A DNA stretch of 64,000 nucleotides from a bacterium (GTDB taxonomy: Bacteria; Electryoneota; RPQS01), in assembly GCA_013360195.1 (NCBI GenBank), contig JABWCQ010000003.1:1-64000 (forward strand). The letters run 5' to 3'. This document shows positions 5,291 through 47,418 of this stretch, piece by piece; the first letter of the stretch is position 1; every line of letters starts with the position of its first letter. A program made the translations under genes and the position numbers. The notes under the pieces were generated by a model, which was not told the DNA's origin, made no database searches, and worked only from the letters and a program-made list of their open reading frames with translations.

Positions 5291-5325
5291 AAAAAACGAG
5301 CGCGGCGGCTAAATGAGCCGCCGCG
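5291..5325 (-). terminator. Rho-independent terminator
   Basis: A 10-bp GC-rich stem (CGCGGCGGCT at 5301-5310 with its complement at 5316-5325) and a 5-nt loop are followed on the minus strand by CTCG and six T. It ends the transcript of the beta-helix T9SS gene. Confidence 0.85.
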
Positions 5326-5352: not shown

Positions 5353-7059
5353 CTATTTCAGATACAAGACTTTCTTGGTTTCCGCATATAGGTGATCCTT
5401 TGCATGCAAGAAATAAACTCCTGCGGCAAGATCACTTGGCGCTTGAAATGACAAAGAGCCGCGGAGGGTTCTGCCCGAGTGCAAAAGGGCAACTTCGCGG
5501 CCCAGCAAATCAAACAACCGAACCTCAAAATCCGCTCCCGTCATGCCGTCGAGTTCAATCCGAAATTCGCTGTTAAATGGATTAGGATAGACGTTTGAGA
5601 TGAACCATGTACTCGGGACAGTCCAGCGGCGATCATCCGCAGCATTCGGCGGCGGATAGAGCGTCGTGTCAGGAATTTCGTCCTCGCTCAACAGCCATTC
5701 GTCATATATCGTCGCCGCATTCGTCGTGTCTCCCAATCCGCCGGGGTTGCGGGTCGCTTCATAGGGGCCGGTAGAATCACCCCAGAAGTTATGGAGGGCG
5801 TAGCTCGTAGGCCAAAAGAAATCAGACGTGTAAACAGCATAACCGATATTACCAACAAATGCGTTGAATTCAAGAACACCCTCACCAACATTCCCCATCC
5901 CAATGGTTCTACTTTGCCAAGTCGGATAACCCCAACTTGAGTTGTTCGAAAAATAATTGCGTTGCACACGACCCTGACTAGGATTGAATTGATTTCCCAG
6001 GCCAATGCATGCCGCAGTACCTCCGTAGTTGTTATGGAAGTGGTTTTGTTCACATTCGAAGGTTGCTCTCGTTTGTGAAAAATTGAGAATTGGAGCACCA
6101 GCTGTGTTCGGGGGAACCGTTGAATTTTCAAAGGTACAACGGGTAATTGTCGTCGTGCCATTGCGTTCAATGAAACTCGGAACCCACAGTCCAAAAGGTA
6201 AAGAGTTTTCAGTGAAAAGACATGAGTCAATAGTTAACTCGTTTGGACCTAAGCCACCACTACCGACCAAAAAAAAGCTGAGGGAATTATCTCCTATCAC
6301 ACAACCGTGTAACCGCATATATCCAACTGATCCATCATACGCTCGCAAGAAAATTGCCGAGCCCTCGGGACCGTAACCAAAACCGTGGATGTGTGTGCCT
6401 GAAATTGTGATAGAAGAGCTATTCAAATCAATCTGAGCTTCAGTGTTACTTGGCGGCATGAAATATCCGTCCGGGCCAATGTCAGAATCCATAATATGGA
6501 CTGTGCTATGCCGAGCATACAGGACTTCACCACGATAAAGCGCATCGTTGCCTGGCATAAAACAGCGCTTCAGTGTTAACACCGATGAGTCGGCATAGAT
6601 CGCTCCTCCGTACCCAGCCAGACAGGACTTAAATACACAATCTTTAATGTCCGCCGTTCGATTACGAATGTAAATGCCGCCGCCCTTGTTGTTGCCAACC
6701 GTGATGGCGCGTCCAAGGGAAAGTGTTATGCCAACCATACGCAATGTCGTGTCCGTCGAGTCAGCGGGCTGTGTGACAAAACAACCGTTGTCTGGTGCGC
6801 CATTGCTCGGACGAACGATGCAGTTGGCGATGTCAATCGGATTGTGTGTCAGAATAAATTCACTGGCAATCGTGATGTTACGCGCCCAAACAAAAAACGG
6901 GCCGCGGTACGTCCCGGCCCGGCAGACTATCGTGTCATTGGAATTGCTTTCATCCAGCGCCTGTTGCAAGTTGTTGAAGTCATCCGGCACAAAGTGAATG
7001 ACCGCGTGGGCCGTACCAGCCCACGCTAACATCACTACCCATATGAGTATGGAAGTCAT
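5353..7059 (-). CDS. right-handed beta-helix protein with T9SS sorting domain
   Basis: The 568-residue protein has a signal peptide (MTSILIWVVMLAWAGTAHA). A long parallel beta-helix region follows (residues about 25-450), with repeats of the GGGIYIRN, GGAIYADSS and CVFKSC type found in pectate-lyase-like and polymorphic surface proteins. The C-terminus is a T9SS type A sorting domain: VYPNPFNSEFRIELDG, then FEVRLFDLLGREVALL, GVYFLHA and a final KKVLYLK. It should therefore cross the outer membrane through T9SS and be attached to or released from the surface. Catalysis cannot be assigned; carbohydrate binding or adhesion is plausible. It lies 3 nt after the Cys-rich gene and shares the promoter with the G11 spacer. 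A strong terminator follows. Confidence 0.88.
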   Translation of the reverse strand: MTSILIWVVMLAWAGTAHAVIHFVPDDFNNLQQALDESNSNDTIVCRAGTYRGPFFVWARNITIASEFILTHNPIDIANCIVRPSNGAPDNGCFVTQPADSTDTTLRMVGITLSLGRAITVGNNKGGGIYIRNRTADIKDCVFKSCLAGYGGAIYADSSVLTLKRCFMPGNDALYRGEVLYARHSTVHIMDSDIGPDGYFMPPSNTEAQIDLNSSSITISGTHIHGFGYGPEGSAIFLRAYDGSVGYMRLHGCVIGDNSLSFFLVGSGGLGPNELTIDSCLFTENSLPFGLWVPSFIERNGTTTITRCTFENSTVPPNTAGAPILNFSQTRATFECEQNHFHNNYGGTAACIGLGNQFNPSQGRVQRNYFSNNSSWGYPTWQSRTIGMGNVGEGVLEFNAFVGNIGYAVYTSDFFWPTSYALHNFWGDSTGPYEATRNPGGLGDTTNAATIYDEWLLSEDEIPDTTLYPPPNAADDRRWTVPSTWFISNVYPNPFNSEFRIELDGMTGADFEVRLFDLLGREVALLHSGRTLRGSLSFQAPSDLAAGVYFLHAKDHLYAETKKVLYLK

Positions 7060-7062
7060 GAC

Positions 7063-7503
7063 CTAACTGCCCACACAACTTGGAGCGCAATTGTTACTCG
7101 ATGGAGTATAGAATCTGACAGTAATGTTCCCAGTATCACAGTCATCGGTACAGTCATAACAGCGCACCTTGAAACGGAGCGTGTTGCCGGAAGGTATCGG
7201 GGTCATACCAGAGTCATAGAGTAGCCCTTTCTGGCAATCACAAGCACCAGATACTGCGCCTTGCAATAGGGTCTCTCCGCCTCCCGTGATATCGTAAAGT
7301 ACAACCTCAACCCTGTTGTTTGCAGATCCATTGTACTGATAATAAATAAGCGAAGTTGCACAAGGTAACGTGTAGTCCAACGATGTGTGCCCATCACAGC
7401 ATGCATCAGTATGCGAAGTACACCACGAACACCCCTGTGCAAAAACATTCACATTCATCGCCAAGACCAACATCAACACAAGGCAAGGTAGCTTCCAGTT
7501 CAT
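7063..7503 (-). CDS. Cys-rich secreted protein of unknown function
   Basis: This 146-residue protein starts MNWKLPCLVLMLVLAMNVNVFAQ, a clear signal peptide. The mature part of about 123 residues contains twelve cysteines, many close-set (GCSWC, ACC, CDC, CYDC, CAPSC), suggesting a disulfide-stabilised extracellular domain. I recognise no family and there is no T9SS sorting domain. The ribosome site AGGGAGAAAG precedes ATG 7503. It is the first gene behind the phase-variable-looking promoter and is followed after 3 nt by the beta-helix T9SS gene, so the two are likely co-expressed and may act together at the cell surface. Confidence 0.75.
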   Translation of the reverse strand: MNWKLPCLVLMLVLAMNVNVFAQGCSWCTSHTDACCDGHTSLDYTLPCATSLIYYQYNGSANNRVEVVLYDITGGGETLLQGAVSGACDCQKGLLYDSGMTPIPSGNTLRFKVRCYDCTDDCDTGNITVRFYTPSSNNCAPSCVGS

Positions 7504-7562
7504 CGTCTTTCTCCCTAAAGATGATAATGCCCGTCGCGTCGTGCGGCCAGCTTATCCACAAT

Positions 7563-7591
7563 ATAATACTACCCCCCCCCCCATTTGTCAA
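7563..7591 (-). promoter_or_regulatory. promoter with G11 homopolymer in the spacer
   Basis: On the minus strand a consensus -35 TTGACA (7586-7591) and a -10 TATTAT (7563-7568, 5 of 6) are 17 bp apart. The spacer consists of AAT, eleven G and TAG. Transcription should start near 7556, about 53 nt before the Cys-rich gene. Length changes in the G tract would alter the spacer and so promoter strength, as is known for phase-variable promoters such as Neisseria porA and opc. Confidence 0.75.
7572..7582. repeat. mononucleotide tract C11 (G11 on minus strand)
   Basis: Eleven consecutive C on the plus strand, the longest mononucleotide run I noticed in the window. It lies entirely within the 17-bp promoter spacer described at 7563-7591, where slipped-strand mispairing would have a direct regulatory effect. 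Confidence 0.95.
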
Positions 7592-7717: not shown

Positions 7718-7750
7718 AAGCGGGCCGGACATCTCGTGTCCAGCCCGCTT
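7718..7750 (-). terminator. terminator-like stem-loop after the VWA gene
   Basis: AAGCGGGC (7718-7725) pairs with GCCCGCTT (7743-7750), with a second nested stem (GGACA/TGTCC). On the minus strand it is followed by TGTCTTTGG, a poor T-run, so it is probably a terminator or 3'-end stabiliser for the gene ending at 7816. Confidence 0.5.
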
Positions 7751-7815: not shown

Positions 7816-10497
7816 TTACTTCAGGAGAAGCATCTTCTTCTGCATGGTGGTCGCACCGGCGGTTAGGCGGTAGAAGTAGAGACCGCTGGGCAGACCGGAC
7901 GCATCAAAGACGACAGTATGACGGCCTTCGGAAAGCGTGCCGTTCACGAGCGCGGCGACCTTCTGTCCGACGGCATTGTAAATGTCCAAAGTTACCGCAC
8001 CTGTTTCCACGAGATCAAAAGTGATGTTGGTCTCGGGATTGAAGGGGTTCGGGTAGTTCTGATGCAGCGCGATTTCCGTCACGACGGCAGCACCCGCGGC
8101 CGGTGTCGCATTCAGTTCACCGGCAACCGCGCGGTCACCGTTCAAGCTGACGCTGACAAGCTCATAGTGGTAGGAGCGGCCGTTTTCAAGCGCACGATCC
8201 ACAAAGGTGTAGGTCGAACCGGACGCGTTGTTGGTGGCGGTAATTTGCGCGGCCATCAGACCATCACGGAGCAATTCAAAATGTGAGTTCTCGGTTTCGG
8301 AAGCCGTTCTCCAAGTGAGCTGGATTTCAGTGTCACGACCGACAGCGGAGAAGCTGGCAAGTTCAACCGGCAGGTAACGCTCGAAGCAGACGCAGATACA
8401 GCCGTCTGACTGCGGAATGATGAGGTTGTGCCAGCAGGAATCGCCCCACAGTGTCCAACCGGTGTTGCTGAAGAGGAACTGCGCCGGATCACACTCTTCG
8501 GAGCAATCTTCGGTCATGCAGCCGGGCGTGATGTTCAGAATTGGATAGTTGCCTTGCGTAAGTCCATCTCCGCAGACAAAGACGTGAACGGGTTCGCCAA
8601 GACAGAGATAGGCGCAAATGCACGCGGGTGGGATGCGGAGGTCATCTTCAAAGAAGTAGATGGCGGTTTCCGCGTCGCACGGCGAACAGTCGGGAACTTC
8701 AATGACGATATCGAGGAAGTTGGGCGGGCAGTTGTCGCTAGTCAGATTGACCGTGACAATCATGAGACCGCCGTCGCCGTCGGGTGTAATGGTGAAATTG
8801 AAGTCGGTGAATACGGACTGGTTGGCGGCGAGATTGCCGAGCGCAACGGGATTTGCGGAATTCAAAACGGCGGATCCGAAATCGCCGCCGACATTGGTGA
8901 CTTCAAGAGAGACGTTTTCGCAAGCGGCCGAGCCGTCGTTCAAGGTGGTTACGCGGACATCAAAGGTCGGTGTGGTGATACCGCCGCCGTTGGGGTCACA
9001 ACGAAGCGTCACGCCAGCCGAGGACAGACGGAGTTCGCCCTGGCCGCAGTCAGAGATGATTTGATTGATGGCGCCGCCCGTGCCGGAGCCGTTGGAGGCG
9101 ACGATGCGTACAGAGCCGGCGGTCGTTGCCGCATAATCATCCAAAACCGGGAGGATGTTCAAAGGTGATTCGCCGAACGGATTGGGAACATACACTGAGC
9201 TGATACGAATCCCGAGGCCAGCGGCATCGAGGGCGCGTTGATGCGCAAAGGCGATATCAGAACCGTCGTGAGTGTCATCGCAGCCGCCGTTGGTGGCGTC
9301 GGTTATCAAGACGATGATTTTGGAGGCGGCAGGACGGAAAGGTGACGTGAAGTGCGCAGACACACAGGCACCATCATTGGTGATGATTTCACGGAGCGCC
9401 ACATCGGATGCTTCGGGCAGACTATTGCCTCCGGCTGCAACAAGTGCTGCGATGGAAGCCTGAACAGCGGCGTGATTGAAGGTCAAGTTGTGATGCGTGT
9501 AGACGGAATCAGTGAACGTGACGAGACCGAGTCTCAAGTCGTTTCCAGACGCCTGATTTGCCAGCATAATAATGTTGGGGAGCTCGCTGACGACATTGCC
9601 GATGGCGTTGCCCATTGAGCCGGTGACGTCGACGGCGAAGACGAGGTCGATGGGACCGCAATCACCGGGAGCCGGGCAGGCCTCTTCACAGGAGACGCCT
9701 TCGGTCCACTCGCCACCGAGCACGTATGCGCAGAAGTCTTCGCGGGTGGTCTCGCAGACGGGTTCACCGTCATCATAGTAACAGCAACGGCCGATCGTGC
9801 AGGGGTTGTCTTCGCAGTTGGCGTTTTCGTCCCAGACACCGCCGAGGTCAATACACTCATCGATGGTTACATCGGCGCAGGCCGGCGCACCGAAATCATT
9901 CATGTAGCAGCAACGTCCGCTTTCGCACTCGGTGACGGAAACAAGGAAGGAACCGCATTCACCGGGACTGAAAGCTTCAAGGGTCAAATAGATCGTGCCT
10001 TGCTCCAAGAAGATGCAGGGACACATTGAATTCAGGCCGTTGTAGTCATCGTTGACGCAAATGTCACCGAGGCAGCATTCTGTTCCCACATAGAGGACGG
10101 GGTCATAGGCAAAACCGTCATAACGGATTGACCAAAGACCGGAATAAGGAATGCTTACCGCGATGGAGTAGTCTTCGGAGCTCCACGAGTCGCAGCTATT
10201 ACCATTGCCGCATGTGCCGCCATTCAGGAAGCCGGGCGCAGCGAGCTGTGCATCGGGGCATTCGTCAAGCGACTGCGTGCGTCTTCCGGCCGGAACGGTC
10301 TTTCCGGTCAGGATGTCATACATCTTCTGCAGGTCTTCAGTCGGGAGACCGTTTTGTTTCGCCGCATCGATTTGTGCGGACAGCGAAAGCAGTTTCGCGT
10401 TGGGATCGATTGCCTGCGTCACCGGATCGCGGTAATTTGCAGCGAAAGCGGCGGCAACCACACAAAGCATACAACACAGGGTCAGGAATTTTCTCAT
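7816..10497 (-). CDS. VWA-domain T9SS-secreted protein with Cys-rich modules
   Basis: The 893-residue protein has a signal peptide (MRKFLTLCCMLCVVAAAFA). Around residues 195-280 there are two tandem Cys-rich modules (GRCCYMND... and GRCCYYDD..., each with GGVW or GGEW and a C-rich end). A von Willebrand factor A domain follows from about residue 283 to 460, with the MIDAS sequence DVTGSMG near residue 290 for divalent metal binding. A CARDB/DUF11-like region and an LPVELASF...SHFELLR Fn3-like region come next. The end is a T9SS type A domain (YPNPFNPETNITFD ... QKKMLLLK). It should be exported to the surface; VWA domains usually mediate protein-protein adhesion. Ligand unknown. It is monocistronic, with a terminator-like hairpin downstream. 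Confidence 0.9.
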   Translation of the reverse strand: MRKFLTLCCMLCVVAAAFAANYRDPVTQAIDPNAKLLSLSAQIDAAKQNGLPTEDLQKMYDILTGKTVPAGRRTQSLDECPDAQLAAPGFLNGGTCGNGNSCDSWSSEDYSIAVSIPYSGLWSIRYDGFAYDPVLYVGTECCLGDICVNDDYNGLNSMCPCIFLEQGTIYLTLEAFSPGECGSFLVSVTECESGRCCYMNDFGAPACADVTIDECIDLGGVWDENANCEDNPCTIGRCCYYDDGEPVCETTREDFCAYVLGGEWTEGVSCEEACPAPGDCGPIDLVFAVDVTGSMGNAIGNVVSELPNIIMLANQASGNDLRLGLVTFTDSVYTHHNLTFNHAAVQASIAALVAAGGNSLPEASDVALREIITNDGACVSAHFTSPFRPAASKIIVLITDATNGGCDDTHDGSDIAFAHQRALDAAGLGIRISSVYVPNPFGESPLNILPVLDDYAATTAGSVRIVASNGSGTGGAINQIISDCGQGELRLSSAGVTLRCDPNGGGITTPTFDVRVTTLNDGSAACENVSLEVTNVGGDFGSAVLNSANPVALGNLAANQSVFTDFNFTITPDGDGGLMIVTVNLTSDNCPPNFLDIVIEVPDCSPCDAETAIYFFEDDLRIPPACICAYLCLGEPVHVFVCGDGLTQGNYPILNITPGCMTEDCSEECDPAQFLFSNTGWTLWGDSCWHNLIIPQSDGCICVCFERYLPVELASFSAVGRDTEIQLTWRTASETENSHFELLRDGLMAAQITATNNASGSTYTFVDRALENGRSYHYELVSVSLNGDRAVAGELNATPAAGAAVVTEIALHQNYPNPFNPETNITFDLVETGAVTLDIYNAVGQKVAALVNGTLSEGRHTVVFDASGLPSGLYFYRLTAGATTMQKKMLLLK

Positions 10498-46099: not shown

Positions 46100-47418
46100 T
46101 CTTGTTTGACCGCTACAGCAAATTGAGAAAGCAATTGCCCGGGGCGGCAATTCATGTGGGCCAGAAACAACTGCTGCCACTGCTGAGCGGAACACTCCGA
46201 AAGAATGACCTTCCTGAACTGATCGTCGTACCGACGAATGTAATTGAGCTTCAGACAATCCTGAGGTTTGCAGCGGAAAAGGACATGCGGGTCGCGGTGG
46301 CGTCAGGTCACACTCCCGTATCGGTGCAGGAGCTCGAAGGCGCGATGTTGATCTTCACTCATGGACTTGTCGGCAGTGCGCAACTCTCTTCCGATGGTAG
46401 CGGAATCTGGGTTGGGTCGGGAACACCGTTGGAAACATTAGCAGTTGAACTTGCTCAGCGAGGGCTGGTTTGGCTGCCGTTGCATCCACTGGAGTCCGGT
46501 GAAACAGTGGCAACGTTTTTTGCGCGTGCATGTGAAGGCGTACGTTGTCATCGCGGCGGCAGCGTATTATCCAACATCCGCCGCGTTGAGTGGGTAGATT
46601 ATGAAGGAAACTGTTATGCAACCGGTCCAGGTTGCCCGGGCGATGGTGTTGATGTAACAGCTTTGCTGTACGGCAGCGGAGCTCGTTATGGAATTATTAC
46701 GCGATTTGAGCTTGCGCTGGAGCAGGTGCCGGAAACCCGGACGTTAGTACTTTGCGAGTGTGATTCCGTGGGCCGAGTGAGCGAATTACACAGCGGCTGG
46801 AGATATGGTACGCCGATGCCAAGCGCACTTCCCGTGTGGACGACAACTGCGGTGAACGCAGTCCGGCAGGGAAACGATGACTTCATTTCTAATTCGACGG
46901 TTGGAATGATCGTTGGTGAATGGGAGGGAAGCGTAGGAGTTGAGGTGGACAGCGATGTGCGGAGCTTGCGCGTAGACGGGGTTACTCAAGTCAATCAAGT
47001 ATGGCAGAATCTATTCAGACTGCCAAGAACCCTAGGCCGACTATTCCCTCACCGCAGTGTTGGTCGATACAGATTGCCCGCGGAAGCGCTTTGTGATTTT
47101 GACGAACGAGTGCGACAGCTTGCCAAGGACAGGAGCGTGGACGTCGCGTTATGGGGAACTCTTGACCGAGGATACCTGAATGTTTGGGTCTTACACCCGG
47201 ATGATGAACAACGCACAGCCCGGCGCGCAAGAGATTTGTTGGAACGCCTTGCCGAGGATGCATTGAATCTTTCGGGGTGCCCGATTGAAGCCGGCAGCGG
47301 AATGTGCGATGTTTCATTGTACCGTGACGCCATTTCACAGAGCTGGGAACTTTCGCTTGTAACAAAATGCGACAAGAACTCGCGGTATAAGCTCCTGAGA
47401 ACCCAGCCGTCGAATTAG
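46096..47418 (+). CDS. FAD-binding (PCMH-type) oxidoreductase
   Basis: The 440-residue protein resembles GlcD/D-lactate-dehydrogenase-type flavoproteins in its first half. LPELIVVPTNVIELQTILRF, VAVASGHTPVSVQ, GIWVGSGTPLETLAVELAQR, GGSVLSNIRRVEWVDYEG and YGSGARYGIITRFELALEQV are the FAD-binding PCMH elements, in divergent form. The C-terminal half has the FAD-oxidase C-like pattern VDVALWGTLDRGYLNVWVLH and ends with the CDVSLYRDAISQ helix. It probably oxidises a 2-hydroxyacid or related substrate, with identity unknown. There is no fused Fe-S domain. It is translationally coupled to fmdB. Confidence 0.75.
   Translation: MILFDRYSKLRKQLPGAAIHVGQKQLLPLLSGTLRKNDLPELIVVPTNVIELQTILRFAAEKDMRVAVASGHTPVSVQELEGAMLIFTHGLVGSAQLSSDGSGIWVGSGTPLETLAVELAQRGLVWLPLHPLESGETVATFFARACEGVRCHRGGSVLSNIRRVEWVDYEGNCYATGPGCPGDGVDVTALLYGSGARYGIITRFELALEQVPETRTLVLCECDSVGRVSELHSGWRYGTPMPSALPVWTTTAVNAVRQGNDDFISNSTVGMIVGEWEGSVGVEVDSDVRSLRVDGVTQVNQVWQNLFRLPRTLGRLFPHRSVGRYRLPAEALCDFDERVRQLAKDRSVDVALWGTLDRGYLNVWVLHPDDEQRTARRARDLLERLAEDALNLSGCPIEAGSGMCDVSLYRDAISQSWELSLVTKCDKNSRYKLLRTQPSN

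Follow-up and report, generated by a model that had tools for sequence, protein, structure and literature searches.

In the genome of an uncultured bacterium (G000, 3.23 Mb in 46 contigs), a G11 tract fills most of a promoter spacer ahead of an operon for a T9SS-sorted surface protein, whose sorting domain scores above the curated cut-off. The tract is best read as a contingency switch, one of a repertoire in an operon family, in which the -10 box is most likely TATATT and the allele as assembled is likely to be weak or OFF (probability about 0.8). Slipped-strand mispairing during replication would add or remove single Gs, shifting the distance between the -35 and -10 boxes in 1-bp steps and thereby setting the promoter strength of a two-gene operon, whose products are a small secreted protein and a beta-helix surface protein exported by the T9SS. 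Elsewhere in the genome and the family, C or T tracts in spacers and G tracts in signal-peptide codons would play the same part. Slips at these runs probably raise or lower the expression of single surface proteins in a random manner, and with such a repertoire each cell would display its own combination of them. How spacing affects transcription here is taken by analogy from other bacteria.

The G11 promoter and its two-gene operon

The window, the whole stretch of 64,000 nucleotides that was analysed, reads at 7591-7563 on the minus strand TTGACA, AAT, GGGGGGGGGGG, TAG and TATTAT, letter for letter as in the preliminary description, with a spacer of 17 bp to TATTAT. The G11 tract is the sole G/C run of at least 8 in the window, where 0.015 G/C runs of at least 11 are expected by first-order Markov resampling. 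Past the tract the bases read TAGTATTATATTGT, hence a second -10 candidate, TATATT, which overlaps TATTAT (Table 1).

In the 568-aa protein, the Por_Secre_tail reaches 34.1 bits with PF18962 (cut-off 27) and 27.9 bits with TIGR04183 (cut-off 23), and the beta-helix domain PF13229 was scored on the paralogue on contig C8, which is 55% identical. The 146-aa Cys-rich protein gave no match in Pfam and NCBIfam searches. No function is claimed for it: its single-sequence model, of low confidence (mean pLDDT 66), matched generic beta-sandwich structures only, at query-normalised TM-scores of about 0.5 or less. Since terminator-like hairpins bound it on both sides, the stretch from 7591 to about 5301 looks like a single transcription unit of promoter, GGGAG, secreted protein and T9SS protein. 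The hairpin on the promoter side would shield the operon against read-through.

Table 1. Positions of the promoter elements, genes, hairpins and intragenic tracts (window positions unless a contig is given)
Feature	Position	Strand	Basis
-35 box TTGACA	7586..7591	-	sequence and consensus scan
G11 tract in promoter spacer, proposed slippage switch	7572..7582	-	sequence; like placement in paralogues and relatives
-10 candidate 1, TATTAT, spacing 17	7563..7568	-	sequence; missing from some tract promoters
-10 candidate 2, TATATT, spacing 20, favoured	7560..7565	-	kept in all G-type tract promoters; genome's usual -10
GGGAG, probable ribosome-binding site of small gene	7511..7515	-	sequence
146-aa Cys-rich protein, signal peptide by eye	7063..7503	-	sequence, profile search, structure model
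Beta-helix surface protein of 568 aa, C-terminal sorting domain of T9SS type A	5353..7059	-	PF18962, TIGR04183
Terminator-like hairpin past second gene	5301..5325	-	hairpin in sequence
Terminator-like hairpin between upstream vWA/T9SS gene (7816-10497) and promoter	7718..7750	-	hairpin in sequence
G9-G13 intragenic tracts	G000:C6:28175, C6:30467, C6:32378, C11:109518		FG-GAP-like or T9SS ORFs

The -10 box and the state of the assembled allele

The preliminary description had proposed a phase-variation switch resembling that of porA, working through spacer length ahead of the Cys-rich and T9SS beta-helix genes, with G11 as the ON state at the optimal 17-bp spacing. The switch itself finds support in paralogues, in relatives and in near-identical copies that differ in tract length; the ON assignment is not supported, as the distance of 17 bp holds only to TATTAT and the conserved TATATT lies at 20, 3 bp too far. 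The true -10 box is most likely TATATT, because this box stands at 17 bp in ordinary promoters and is kept in all G-type tract promoters. In the window's own genome, the spacing of ordinary (non-tract) TTGACA...TATATT promoters is exactly 17 bp in 59 of 71, and seven non-tract promoters with the core TA[TG]TATATT place TATATT at 17 in every case. Furthermore, TATATT is present in every G-type tract promoter. With TATATT as the -10 box, G11 puts the spacing at 20, which probably leaves the assembled version weak or OFF; G8 would bring the spacing back to 17, and at about that length (perhaps G7-G9) the operon would be ON.

The same switch in the register of the preliminary description, with TATTAT at 17 bp as the -10 box and the assembled G11 allele fully ON, is a doubtful alternative. 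With this pairing 11 of 12 consensus positions are matched, the top sigma-70-type match within 12 kb in a consensus scan, and three promoters with differing tract lengths and flanks (C3, C8 and C17c) all put TATTAT at exactly 17, as if 17 had been selected. However, TATTAT is absent from G001, G006 and C17a, where TATATT is present; it stands at 17 bp in only the two G11 promoters among the matches listed (100 of 119 TTGACA places); and the seven ordinary promoters with the same core use 17 bp to TATATT. Meanwhile, five of the seven G-type promoters, from three genera, place TATATT at 20 bp, a recurrence on account of which the register of the preliminary description, TATTAT at 17, stays a candidate. 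TATTAT at G11 may also serve as a second ON register beside the favoured TATATT.

Tract promoters scatter over spacings of 15-20 bp. With TATATT as the -10 box of the G-type promoters and, in the remaining ones, the best -10 box chosen by eye, a 17-bp spacing was found in 1 of 17 tract promoters versus 59 of 69 ordinary ones within the 14-22 range (Fisher p = 8e-10), and in 6 of 17 under the alternative register (p = 8e-5), p values that overstate the evidence because related sequences are not independent. These 17 promoters include two found by reading operons (C37 and C10b), and differ from the 17 pattern matches described below.

Tracts across the operon family

Ahead of the sister operons of the window's own genome, G-spacer promoters occur on C8 (G11) and on C17 at 46858 (G9), 44477 (G8) and 39422 (G6). 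In relatives the design is seen, each time with G12, on G001:C2 in the same genus and on G006:C193 in a different one. A similar promoter with an interrupted G spacer precedes a sister operon at C14:99195 of the own genome. This locus is read as orthologous to that of G001:C2, where the tract is a pure G12, since a YceI-like neighbour is common to both and the small proteins are similar. The boxes and the tract are kept while the flanks have largely diverged between most copies; C17b, C17c and C14 share more. An orthologue of the window's own operon was sought in the same-genus G001 and none was identified: its two best beta-helix matches sit among YceI-like and FKBP-like genes, which flank the C14 and C17 operons and not this one. 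The small gene of C17c, beside its tract promoter, looks broken by a frame change after the signal peptide (about 46930-47000). The C14 end, the C9 start, and the ends of G003:C207 and C208 lie where the promoters and signal peptides of the operon family repeat, so the assemblies probably undercount its members.

Tracts of other bases were found by locating beta-helix genes with a profile search and reading the upstream sequence for tract promoters. C tracts fill the spacer on C34 (C9), C37 (C8) and G006:C165 (C10), and T tracts do so on G001:C2 (T13), C5 (T8) and C10 (T11). Pattern searches over 13 genomes of the order (thresholds of at least 8 for G, 7 for C and 8 for T) added G008:C2 (C8), G006:C199 (T11) and G005:C501 (T10). 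They also gave G000:C7 (C8), where a LamG-like T9SS protein follows, and G010:C156, where the gene behind the promoter encodes an exported protein. In all, the pattern search yielded 17 spacer-tract promoters in the 13 genomes, 13 of them before beta-helix operons and 15 before exported proteins, where export was called by eye from the N-terminus or a T9SS tail. Two pattern matches, G002:C2:177346 inside an ORF and G005:C181 before a RarA-like ORF, were scored as chance. The small gene of C34 (before 6590) looks broken, with a stop at codon 2, and is intact in C37. The spacer tracts, whether of G, C or T, belong to a single operon type, in which the gene of a small secreted protein precedes that of a beta-helix protein bearing a type IX sorting tail, and span the own genome and three further genera of the family.

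Near-identical copies differ in tract length. Over 291 aligned bp, C34 and C37 show six substitutions and a single indel, the tract itself (C9 versus C8), which shifts the TACATT spacing from 18 to 17. Similarly, C17b and C17c show four substitutions over 144 aligned bp and a single indel, again the tract (G8 versus G9); substitutions in both pairs were counted from printed alignments. These differences are seen in siblings, and the window's own tract is without a close copy. A third pair, in G003 (G10 versus G7), was given no weight in the main argument, as each of the two contigs stops within the shared stretch. All tract lengths were read from assemblies, one genome per species, and assemblies can misjudge homopolymers.

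Other siblings, in which the spacer holds no tract, have G7 to G10 at the very start of the small gene, among its signal-peptide codons, either in frame (C18, G7; G001:C2:835k, G8) or out of frame (C10, G7; G003:C208, G10; G003:C207, G7). Four more intragenic G tracts of the own genome lie in FG-GAP-like or T9SS ORFs (Table 1). The ORFs with G10 and G13 are open and those with G11 and G9 are closed, either closed one being opened by one G less or more. These tracts are probable cases of translational phase variation.

The spacer tracts in paralogous operons and in relatives, made of three bases and conserved while the flanks diverge, support the switch. Against it weigh the relatedness of the copies, which are not independent, and the repeated spacing of 20 among G-type promoters (five of seven), a greater uniformity than would be expected under free slippage. 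This uniformity across three genera would suit a tract that is a fixed spacer element, whether through DNA shape or as the binding site of a regulator, with too little slippage to matter; such a role is improbable in that the tract base is exchangeable, near-identical copies differ in length, and siblings without a spacer tract have frame-switching tracts in codons instead.

Chance, shared descent or assembly error, by which a neutral run was carried along with duplicated operons, is very improbable as an explanation. The operons are indeed paralogous, homopolymers are misjudged by assemblies (a case is given in PMC9187656), and the ten G/C runs of at least 9 in the 3.2 Mb of the own genome are not above random sequence of equal composition by our estimate. 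The argument against chance comes from placement, not number: four of the ten lie in promoter spacers of the operon family and four within ORFs of exported proteins, so that eight sit where a 1-base change is expected to alter the expression of such a protein. Moreover, tracts persist as the flanks diverge and occur with three bases, the longest spacer run outside surface operons is 6 among the listed TTGACA-TATATT promoters, and reversed patterns had zero matches in the same 13 genomes. Outside both tract classes, a G10 run lies just 5' of TTGACA ahead of a probable secreted protein (C6:8800), and a G9 run lies at C6:22630.

Taken as a slippage switch, the G11 tract may belong to a family-wide contingency system, which we consider somewhat favoured, where one operon type repeatedly acquired tracts of any of three bases in either the promoter spacer or the signal-peptide codons, and thus a combinatorial surface repertoire. 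Homopolymer-slippage phase variation is best known in host-adapted pathogens, and in Bacteroidota the known route of phase variation is mainly invertible promoters. If true, a slippage-switched repertoire of T9SS surface operons would be stochastic surface variation outside the usual pathogens, perhaps, as a speculation, directed against phages or predators. The 17-bp spacing of ordinary promoters versus the scatter of tract promoters would also offer a cheap means to spot such switches in assemblies.

Wider occurrence and comparison with known systems

At least 120 stretches came from a scan of species genomes for TTGACA-G9+-TATWWT; among the matches listed, many are from gut Bacilli and Clostridia, several lie in one Candidatus Ancillula genome, and Treponema ruminis and Helicobacter labacensis have one each. 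The promoter design is therefore not peculiar to the window's lineage, and may be common and under-reported; what is specific to the lineage is the repertoire within this operon family. The 80 loci listed from the scan have spacings mostly of 14-21, and at 62.5% of them the N-terminus encoded by the first ORF downstream is hydrophobic, versus 24% for background ORFs (p = 1.6e-9). Among the matches listed, MAGs of gut Bacilli and Clostridia often hold TATAAT promoters with a poly-G spacer, and such promoters recur several times in Candidatus Ancillula Gsp477_bin129 (G9-G13). A literature search on promoters switched by slippage, in lineages that are uncultured or carry a T9SS, returned nothing pertinent, nor any paper describing the window's lineage.

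In the case of Neisseria meningitidis porA, poly-G likewise lies between the -35 and -10 boxes ahead of a surface protein gene; 11G gives high surface expression, 10G a 2.2-fold lower and 9G a 13-fold lower level (PMC3639595). Unlike porA, which is one gene of a host-adapted pathogen, the present system is a repertoire spread over several operons of an uncultured lineage, whose tracts consist of G, C or T; its favoured -10 box puts G11 beyond the optimum. Treponema pallidum tp0126 also has poly-G within the -35/-10 spacer, with an optimum of 17 bp, and poly-G promoters are common to several surface genes of that species, with lengths that vary within isolates (PMC7864442); the payload genes are unrelated to those here. 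In the tpr genes of Treponema pallidum the tract adjoins the start site and is not in a defined spacer, unlike that of the window's promoter (PMC7864442). The Neisseria opc promoter, as cited in PMC7864442, has a poly-C tract at the -35 position; the C34/C37 promoter, TTGACCCCCCCC, resembles it, whereas the window's own promoter does not. In the Bifidobacterium breve pilus system, G10-G11 tracts switch surface structures, further tracts are mentioned in promoter spacers, and a recorded tract length can differ from the majority of the population (PMC9187656). The tracts studied there lie within genes, as do those in the signal-peptide codons of siblings in the present system. The mechanism is already known from Neisseria porA and Treponema tp0126; what looks new is the lineage, together with the repertoire and the exchangeable base of the tracts.
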